From an uncultured Alphaproteobacteria bacterium (GTDB lineage Bacteria > Pseudomonadota > Alphaproteobacteria > HIMB59 > GCA-002718135): DNA of 38,345 nucleotides. The stretch covers positions 1 through 38,345 of the forward strand of contig CACKQA010000003.1 of the NCBI GenBank assembly GCA_902602135.1, read 5' to 3'. Position 1 is the stretch's first letter; every line of letters starts with the position of its first letter. Shown piece after piece: positions 7,389 through 10,828 of the stretch. Made by a program: the position numbers and the translations under genes. The notes beneath the pieces were generated by a model. That model was not told the DNA's origin. It saw nothing but the letters and a program-made list of their open reading frames with translations, and did not search any database.

Positions 7389-8228
7389 TTATTGTTGAGA
7401 ATTATTTTCCAATGTTTGTACATGAATATCTAGGTTTTCTATCAAAGAATCATTATTAATATTTCCATAAAAAACACCTTTAATAGGTGATGCGTAACTT
7501 GCATCAAGTCCACAAGAAACACGTACGTATCTTTCATCTGGACTGCACTTATTTGTAGGATCAAATCCCACCCAACCTAAGTCATTTATATAAAATTCTG
7601 CCCAGGCATGTGTAGATTGAAATTCTGAAGAATGGGAATTGTTATGCATATAACCATTTACATATCTAGCAGGTATTCCTAAAGTTTTTGCTGCGGCAAT
7701 CATAATATGTGCTTGATCCTGACAGACTCCCTTTTTCTGATTAAATGCCTCAATGGCTGTAGTTTGATTATTTGTCGTTAAAGGTTTGTATTCAATTTTA
7801 TCAGCTACTAAATTCATAAGATTATGAGATGTTTCTAGATTTTCATTTTCATTAAAACCATTTTTAGCTTCAATAGCTAGATTTTTTATATCCGCATTTG
7901 CTTTTGTTAAATTTGATTCTCTTAAGTAAACTAATGGATCTATTTTATCAGAAGTACTCTGGTAAATTCCTTTTGTATCAAATGTTTCAACTTTTCCAAG
8001 AACTGTAAATTGTATTTTTTTCACCTTGTTTGTATTTGTAAAACTTTGAATATTATTAGCCTCACCATCCTTATAAATTTTTGATTTTTTAGCTGAGTCG
8101 TTATGGACATTCCACTCTAAAATTTTAAGACCATTATATTCTGAAGGATGCAGTTTAGTAGTTTGAATTAATCCAGCAACTGGATTTTTATACTCATACT
8201 TAGTTGTGTGTTCGATGATTAGTTCCAT
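7389..8228 (-). CDS. Transglutaminase-like cysteine peptidase of the ATP-grasp/alpha-E cluster
   Basis: MELIIEHTTKYEYKNPV start, KKGVCQDQAHIMIAAAKTLGIPARYVNGY and STHAWAEFYINDLGWVGFDPTN (Cys-His-Asp triad). Start moved from 8267 to 8228 on N-terminal homology, which removes the overlap with the upstream gene. Confidence 0.9.
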   Translation of the reverse strand: MELIIEHTTKYEYKNPVAGLIQTTKLHPSEYNGLKILEWNVHNDSAKKSKIYKDGEANNIQSFTNTNKVKKIQFTVLGKVETFDTKGIYQSTSDKIDPLVYLRESNLTKANADIKNLAIEAKNGFNENENLETSHNLMNLVADKIEYKPLTTNNQTTAIEAFNQKKGVCQDQAHIMIAAAKTLGIPARYVNGYMHNNSHSSEFQSTHAWAEFYINDLGWVGFDPTNKCSPDERYVRVSCGLDASYASPIKGVFYGNINNDSLIENLDIHVQTLENNSQQ

Positions 8229-8229
8229 A

Positions 8230-9165
8230 TTAATTAAAAAACTCCTTATGTATTTCGTTATCAACACTAGATATTTTTCTAATAAATTGTGTTACAAATT
8301 GATGAAGTCCATATTCAACAATAGTTTCTATTTTTTCTTCCTGAATTTTAGTATTTAGATCTTTTAAATTATCATAAATTCTTCCAACCTTTGCTGGACT
8401 ACATGTTAGGTTAGTTAAATGCTTAACAATATTCTGAATACAAAAACTTAAAGATCTAGGGCAATTATTATTTAAAACTAAAAAGTCAGCAATTTTAGTT
8501 GCGGTAATATTACCATCGTATGCCCATCTAAAAGCTCTAAAAGAAGATAAAGAGCGAAGCAATATACTCCATTGCATATTATCGATATTACCACCTACAT
8601 ATTGAGGCTTAGGTAATAAAACAAAATACTTCACATCTAACAATCTGGCAGAATTATCAGCCCTCTCAATAAACAAACCAAGAAAAAGAAAATTATAACC
8701 ATCATTTCTAAGCAAAGAATTTAATGATCCTCTAAATAAGTTTACTTGTTCTATTGTCCACTCAGTCAGATCAGGTAAATCAGATTTTGTAAATTTTTTT
8801 TCTTTTAAATTTAGTATCTCTTGATAAGTTTTATTAATTGCTAACCAAGACTCAGGGGTAAAGGAAGTTCTAACTACTAATGCGTTATTTCGTGCATTAA
8901 GAATACAATTGTAAACAGATGAAGGATTACTTTCATCAAAAAATAAATAATCTTCCACATTTTTCTGTTCAATTGTATCATATTTATTTTTATATCCCTC
9001 AATTGCTCCAGCAGCAGATAAAACTGATTCCCATTCATTATTATAACCACTTGGATTTGGAAAAAGAGACATTCTATAACCAACATCCAAAAGCCTGGCT
9101 GTAGTTTCAGCTCTTTCCATATAACGACTGATCCAATATAGATATTCAGCAGTTCTACTTAACAT
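8230..9165 (-). CDS. Alpha-E domain protein
   Basis: MLSRTAEYLYWISRYMERAETTARLLDV is the characteristic N-terminus of the alpha-E (DUF403) family. Confidence 0.92.
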   Translation of the reverse strand: MLSRTAEYLYWISRYMERAETTARLLDVGYRMSLFPNPSGYNNEWESVLSAAGAIEGYKNKYDTIEQKNVEDYLFFDESNPSSVYNCILNARNNALVVRTSFTPESWLAINKTYQEILNLKEKKFTKSDLPDLTEWTIEQVNLFRGSLNSLLRNDGYNFLFLGLFIERADNSARLLDVKYFVLLPKPQYVGGNIDNMQWSILLRSLSSFRAFRWAYDGNITATKIADFLVLNNNCPRSLSFCIQNIVKHLTNLTCSPAKVGRIYDNLKDLNTKIQEEKIETIVEYGLHQFVTQFIRKISSVDNEIHKEFFN

Positions 9166-9174
9166 TTTTATTAC

Positions 9175-10584
9175 TCATTCAGCCAAAACCCATGTGTCTT
9201 TCACACCGCCTCCTTGGCTAGAATTTACAACAAACGAACCTTCATTCATTGCAACTCTAGTTAAACCACCAGAACTTAATTGAGCCTGCTCTCCAATTAA
9301 ACAAAATGGACGTAAATCTACCCTTCTTCCCTCAACTTGATTTTTGATTAGTGTTGGTGAAAATGAAAGATCAAGTAAAGGTTGAGCTATATATCCTTTT
9401 GGATTTGTTGACAGTTTTGTTTTAAATTCATCTATAGAGGATTTAGAAGATTTTGGACCTATTAACATCCCATAACCTCCAGATCCATCAACCTCTTTTA
9501 CGACAAGTTCATTTATATTATCTAAAACATATTTTAATTCTTGTTCCTTTTCGCAATTCCATGTTTCAACATTATCTAAGATTGGTTGTTCACCTAAATA
9601 AAATTTTATCATCTCAGGCACATATATATAAATTGCTTTATCATCGGCTATACCTGCTCCAGGAGCTGAACAAATATTAACACCTCCGGTTCTATAAACA
9701 TCCATAATTCCTGGAATGCCAATTACAGATTGAGGATTAAAACAGAGAGGATCTAAAAAATCATCATCTATTCTTCTATAAACAACATCTACTCTCTTTG
9801 GGCCATCTACTGTTTTCATATAAAGGTATTTACCTTCGACAAATAGATCGGTTGATTCAACCATTTCAATACCCATTTGATCTGATAAAAAACTATGTTC
9901 GTAATAAGCACTATTCAATGGACCAGGTGTAAGTAATACGCATACAGGTTCTGGATTTTCGCATTTAATAGGAGCCAAGCTCATCAAAGTTTGTAAAAGT
10001 CTTGTAGGATAATCATCTATTGGCGTTACTCTATTGTTATGAAATAGATCAGGAAACATTCGCATCATTATTTCTCTATTTTCTAGCATGTAGGAAACAC
10101 CACTTGGCGTTCGACAATTATCTTCCAAAACAAAATACTCGTTTGGACCTGTTCTAACTAAATCAATACCAATTATAGGACTATAAATGTCTCTAGGAGG
10201 TGAAAAACCAAACATTGAAGGTTCAAAAGATTTTTTTTTGTAAATAATTTCTTTAGGAATTATATTGGCTTTTATTATTTCACCTTGATTATAAATATCA
10301 GCAAGAAACGCATTAAGTGCTTTAGCTCTTTGGATTACTCCTCTTTCTAGCCTTAACCATTCTGTATAAGTAAATATCCTTGGAATTAAATCAAACGGAA
10401 TAATTCTTTCTCTTGCAGTTTCGTTATTTGTAGAAAATGTAATTCCAATATTTCTAAAATGAGATTCAGCTTCAGCATTCTTTTCAAGAATAACTTTTGA
10501 AGTCATTTGATCCAACCAATCATTAATATTGTTATAATGTTTTCTTATAACTGACTCAGATTGATACATTTCATTAAACATCAA
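9175..10584 (-). CDS. Circularly permuted type 2 ATP-grasp protein; true start probably ATG at 10581
   Basis: GPNEYFVLEDNCRTPSGVSYMLENR, VCVLLTPGPLNSAYYEHSFL, VVKEVDGSGGYGMLIGP, LRPFCLIGE. Confidence 0.92.
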   Translation of the reverse strand: MMFNEMYQSESVIRKHYNNINDWLDQMTSKVILEKNAEAESHFRNIGITFSTNNETARERIIPFDLIPRIFTYTEWLRLERGVIQRAKALNAFLADIYNQGEIIKANIIPKEIIYKKKSFEPSMFGFSPPRDIYSPIIGIDLVRTGPNEYFVLEDNCRTPSGVSYMLENREIMMRMFPDLFHNNRVTPIDDYPTRLLQTLMSLAPIKCENPEPVCVLLTPGPLNSAYYEHSFLSDQMGIEMVESTDLFVEGKYLYMKTVDGPKRVDVVYRRIDDDFLDPLCFNPQSVIGIPGIMDVYRTGGVNICSAPGAGIADDKAIYIYVPEMIKFYLGEQPILDNVETWNCEKEQELKYVLDNINELVVKEVDGSGGYGMLIGPKSSKSSIDEFKTKLSTNPKGYIAQPLLDLSFSPTLIKNQVEGRRVDLRPFCLIGEQAQLSSGGLTRVAMNEGSFVVNSSQGGGVKDTWVLAE

Positions 10585-10709
10585 TGAGTAAACCTCTTGA
10601 GATTTGAATAGAATAATTTTTTATTATCTAACTTTTTAACCATAGTTATAACAAACCTTTCATATCCGTTACAATTCATGCTTAGCTATGGAAATTAATT
10701 ATAAGATCC

Positions 10710-10761
10710 GCGTTCCTTCGGCTTTAGCTTACTTCCGATCTGTTAATACAGATTGAACGAT
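10710..10761 (-). repeat. Unit 1 of a tandem structured element (possible three-way-junction RNA)
   Basis: Minus strand: ATCGTTCA-ATCTGTATTAACAGAT-CGGAAGTA-AGCTAAAGCC-GAAGGAACGC. Shares linkers with unit 2 but has a different hairpin stem. Confidence 0.75.
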
Positions 10762-10775
10762 TTAATAACTTGCAT

Positions 10776-10828
10776 GCGTTCCTTCAACTTTCGTTTACTT
10801 CCGTTTTGAATTATTCAAAATGAACGAT
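10776..10828 (-). repeat. Unit 2 of a tandem structured element (possible three-way-junction RNA)
   Basis: Minus strand: ATCGTTCA-TTTTGAATAATTCAAAA-CGGAAGTA-AACGAAAGTT-GAAGGAACGC. Outer CGTTC/GAACG stem, 7-bp hairpin, short AAC-GAAA-GTT hairpin. Confidence 0.75.

Follow-up and report, generated by a model that had tools for sequence, protein, structure and literature searches.

What are the two small structured elements that lie in tandem ahead of an ATP-grasp operon in an uncultured marine alphaproteobacterium, and do they act separately or together? The stretch of DNA analysed here (38,345 nucleotides, hereafter the window) had received an initial annotation that described two units with three conserved linkers and compensated helices, read as small three-way-junction RNAs with conserved junction nucleotides, for which no named RNA class could be given. 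All of these features were found where the annotation had placed them, but the missing class name did not hold. A scan of the whole window with Rfam 15 returned exactly two matches above threshold, both on the minus strand and both to RF01739 (Glutamine riboswitch, glnA RNA; gathering cut-off 35 bits). Aptamer 1, the 5' unit (10773..10828), scored 66.0 bits and aptamer 2, the 3' unit (10707..10761), scored 60.6 bits, each over the full model (1-53). A chance match is excluded by the E values of ~1e-12 and ~4e-11, respectively, which were computed over the whole window, and the match to a described family rules out a new RNA class. The unit lengths of 52 and 53 nt in the annotation were close, though the Rfam matches extend over 56 and 55 nt, with a gap of 11 nt between them.

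The consensus structure printed with the RF01739 match consists of the outer CGTTC/GAACG helix, two inner hairpins and the conserved junction letters, which bears out the proposed three-way junction. Both units carry the conserved strings ATCGTTCA, CGGAAGTA and GAAGGAACGC (minus strand, 10707-10828). Across 34 tandem sites the hallmark of the family was present, that is an invariant P1 and invariant junction letters (CGTTCA / CGGAAGTA / GAAGGAACGC) next to P2 and P3 helices that are variable yet paired. Unit 2 also reached 20.5 bits against RF01704 (Glutamine-II / Downstream-peptide), which lies under the cut-off of 33 and leaves it outside that family. The RF01739 aptamer class is already known, and so is the arrangement of two full aptamers within a single leader as found here: a 2022 review counted 157 doublets and 4 triplets of tandem glutamine riboswitches and termed them pseudo-cooperative (PMC9481103). 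The family match identifies the element as a type 1 glutamine riboswitch, present in tandem, and this streamlined marine alphaproteobacterium carries it in the 5' leader of its ATP-grasp/Alpha-E/transglutaminase operon. Each aptamer is expected, by analogy with its family, to bind L-glutamine.

The position as a minus-strand 5' leader was correctly recognised before, since the nearest unit ends 126 nt upstream of the ATG (10581) of the ATP-grasp gene. This circularly permuted ATP-grasp gene is the first controlled gene (9175..10581, minus strand; PF14403, 510.6 bits; PF04174, 461.1 bits) and is followed on the same strand by an Alpha-E domain gene (8230..9165; PF04168, 290.6 bits) and a transglutaminase-like gene (7389..8267; PF01841 and PF08379). 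A search of the organism's own assembly (0.96 Mb, 59% complete) yielded six RF01739 matches, which form three tandem pairs. Besides the pair in the window, on contig C23 one precedes a type I glutamine synthetase gene (glnA), which by our reading follows a PII-like fragment, and on contig C25 another precedes an ammonium transporter gene (amt). The riboswitch is therefore found in leaders of nitrogen-metabolism genes, as is typical of RF01739, in addition to that of the ATP-grasp operon. Elsewhere (L128, L143, L148, L151, L152, L159, L163 and L167), two ammonium transporter genes separated by ~2 kb each have a tandem glutamine riboswitch of their own.

RF01739 was detected in 36 of the 37 genomes of the genus, the organism's own included, whereas the 24 genomes examined from a sister family in the same order gave no match. 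In wider samples it occurred in 6/385 genomes of the class and 1/399 of the phylum, where the sole match was the organism's own genome. Most close relatives of the ATP-grasp gene came from contigs with the title uncultured Alphaproteobacteria, and the pattern might point to a HIMB59-type lineage. The riboswitch lies upstream in every one of the 49 close loci of this gene whose sequence includes the leader (L044-L090, L117, L119), with both units in 47 and the remaining two cut by contig ends. No riboswitch was found upstream of the ATP-grasp loci of Pelagibacteraceae and Rhodobacteraceae (63-77% identity). These data also bear on the idea of a structured DNA or mobile repeat, which had been left as an alternative. 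Six similar copies within one genome might suggest such a repeat, but the copies examined are sense leaders of nitrogen-related genes or of the ATP-grasp operon, they precede the same genes genus-wide, and they match a curated RNA family at about 55-68 bits. Leader position, orthology and family match rule this alternative out for all practical purposes, and it is not needed to explain the copies.

Within the 34 tandem sites, pairing in P2 and P3 is kept via two-sided changes, which RNAalifold recorded at 8 of the 22 pairs that it predicted from the tandem alignment. P3, which had been called weak, is indeed short, yet in unit 1 it is backed by two-sided changes. P1 did not vary at any of the sites, and RNAalifold swapped its strands between the two similar units. 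The identical P1 arms permit such an exchange, in which the 3' arm of unit 1 pairs with the 5' arm of unit 2 (alignment A1, columns 3-128 and 54-81); the strand-exchanged pairing is a possible alternative state of the tandem aptamers.

Conservation in the tandem leaders extends beyond the aptamers. In every tandem site examined, the linker between them matches CATGC-A(1-3)-AGTTAT exactly or closely, and it spans 16-18 nt between the P1 arms. A second element, ATARCTA-N(1-2)-GCATG, was present roughly 15-25 nt past aptamer 2 in all of these sites. In the window, the near-invariant linker segment (CATGC-A-AGTTAT, 10765..10776, minus strand) is complementary over 11 pairs to the downstream segment (ATAGCT-AA-GCATG, 10677..10689, minus strand), and we refer to the putative helix as P0. 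Folding of the ATP-grasp and amt leaders also predicted a weak, tentative hairpin (GGAT..TTCC, 10690..10709, minus strand) that may stand between aptamer 2 and the 3' strand of P0.

All 11 P0 pairs can form in 31 of the 34 sites, while in three glnA sites two pairs are broken in the simple register unless a bulge is allowed. The duplex energy, computed for one sequence per leader class, was better than that of most dinucleotide shuffles, the fractions being 0.003 for glnA, 0.003 for amt and 0.015 for ATP-grasp. For the ATP-grasp and amt leaders the mean predicted P0 probability was 0.93-0.98, and for those of glnA it was 0.53-0.63. RNAalifold did not recover P0 from the tandem alignment and gave weak consensus folds for the downstream regions alone. 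Where P0 pairs vary they do so on one side only (A-U to G-U, U-A to U-G), so that covariation does not prove the helix. P0 is thus probable rather than proved. The complementarity between linker and downstream element in tandem sites seems to be new, and P0 offers a concrete, testable reason for the conserved sequence and length of the linker.

A comparable design exists in the tandem glycine riboswitch, where a linker-based helix, also called P0, joins two like aptamers. There the pairing partner of the linker is leader sequence 5' of aptamer 1, whereas here it would be sequence 3' of aptamer 2; as ligand and fold also differ, the likeness is one of design only. In the most far-reaching interpretation, to which we assign a probability of about one half, the two glutamine aptamers form one composite receptor: the linker pairs with the downstream element, P0 encloses aptamer 2 and abuts P1 of aptamer 1, and the assembly controls whether glnA, amt and the ATP-grasp operon are translated, in the last case via a coupled upstream ORF. 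If true, such an arrangement would be new to the glutamine class, with a counterpart in the linker helix of the glycine riboswitch. Of the steps involved, pairing of the linker with the element after aptamer 2, so that this aptamer is enclosed and P1 of aptamer 1 is abutted, is probable, and the aptamer pair may act as a single receptor on that basis. In the solved glutamine aptamer, the ligand draws a junction G into a pair with C60, thereby stabilising P1 (PMC11477058). By our reading C60 corresponds to the C directly after GAACG. As P0 begins with this C in unit 1, glutamine binding and P0 formation may be linked there.

The tandem units could instead be two independent riboswitches in series that operate without P0, each with its own P1-controlled switch, with the linker and the downstream element serving protein binding or mRNA stability. 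This would accord with the classification of tandem glutamine riboswitches as pseudo-cooperative (PMC9481103) and with the absence of two-sided changes in P0. However, the units stand too close together for aptamer 1 to have an expression platform of its own, and in three leader classes the linker and the downstream element show complementarity over 11 pairs; single-aptamer amt sites lack both. We consider independent action unlikely. Two glutamine aptamers in series should sharpen the response.

The leader downstream of P0 holds further conserved features. A conserved hairpin (10649..10671, minus strand) presents a Shine-Dalgarno-like GAAAGG (10656-10661) in its loop. Relatives appear to retain its stem with altered letters (TAACAG/CTGTTA, AACAAA/TTTGTT), as read directly from the leaders. 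This site is followed by a 20-codon ORF (MVKKLDNKKLFYSNLKRFTH; 10581..10643, minus strand), the stop of which overlaps the ATP-grasp start (TGATG). An ORF of 16-25 codons follows a conserved GAAAGG-like site in 49/49 distinct ATP-grasp leaders. Relative to the ATP-grasp ATG, its stop lies between -6 and +8 nt in all 49 and at -2 or +1 in 44 of them (TAA..ATG, TGATG, TAATG); with a single exception, both other frames are closed. Between clades the ORF retains its boundaries but not its peptide sequence, a pattern that suggests coupled translation and not a conserved peptide. The ribosome-binding site closest to the aptamers would drive the short ORF, and translation of the ATP-grasp gene is probably coupled to it. 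No transcription terminator was found in the leader; this speaks against a terminator as the output and points to control that is probably exerted at translation. A small ORF at this position ahead of the ATP-grasp gene seems to be new. RF01704 offers a parallel in its related aptamer followed by a short ORF, its Downstream-peptide products being cyanobacterial ORFs of 17-100 aa (PMC2864571); in the present case, however, the ORF abuts a large gene.

Repression of the operon when glutamine is plentiful is the likely direction of control. It is favoured by the companion targets, since glutamine should lower glnA and ammonium transporters. Anbu, a usual member of such operons, is reported to increase in Pseudomonas putida when nitrogen is limiting (PMC5666114), and we counted this for repression at high glutamine as well. 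Nearest-neighbour folding with P1 enforced or forbidden left the accessibility of the Shine-Dalgarno site unchanged and gave no direction. That the riboswitch turns the operon on at high glutamine, as for gifB in Synechocystis, is the less likely course, although the characterised cyanobacterial type 1 and type 2 glutamine riboswitches do activate upon glutamine binding (PMC6316151). Besides the companion targets, the leader of the same operon in another alphaproteobacterial family (f10) argues against activation: an anti-Shine-Dalgarno stretch there could pair either with the Shine-Dalgarno sequence or with the 3' end of the aptamer, the latter pairing judged by eye, which amounts to an OFF layout.

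The f10 loci (L176-L179, L307) have one glutamine aptamer, not two, immediately ahead of the same ATP-grasp/Alpha-E/transglutaminase operon, the genes of which were identified through their resemblance to the proteins of the window. Instead of the tandem layout, the f10 leader has a hairpin of up to 8 bp that sequesters the Shine-Dalgarno sequence (TCTCTTTC/GAAAGAGA). As two families have placed different leader designs before one operon, the regulatory link is likely to be real. This puts an uncharacterised operon into the glutamine regulon in two separate families and thereby gives a clue to its function. The gene set is shared with the Anbu-type ATP-grasp/Alpha-E/transglutaminase operons (PMC5666114), but a scan of the neighbouring proteins brought no Anbu gene to light, and our literature search found no description of such operons under glutamine-riboswitch control, nor any paper combining 'glutamine riboswitch' with 'ATP-grasp'. 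The operon therefore seems to be a new target of glutamine riboswitches. In sequence, three-helix junction, junction letters, leader position, nitrogen genes and tandem arrangement, the element agrees with type 1 members of RF01739; it differs from the known ones in its ATP-grasp operon target, in its alphaproteobacterial rather than cyanobacterial host and in the conserved complementarity of linker and downstream element. These single-cell genomes supply marine alphaproteobacterial hosts for glutamine riboswitch associations.

Other leader designs were also encountered. A divergent ammonium transporter gene is preceded by a single glutamine aptamer in a pyrimidine-rich leader that has neither the linker nor the downstream element (L142, L157, L171, L173). 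Among the matches listed, no pairing comparable to P0 was found in phage tandem pairs, the linkers of which are 6-9 nt long; some viral aptamers in this set are arranged in tandem, their P1 arms separated by just 6-9 nt (e.g. L200, L206, L224, L247, L261, L262). The glutamine aptamer pattern as such was common in viral contigs among these matches (L187-L266).
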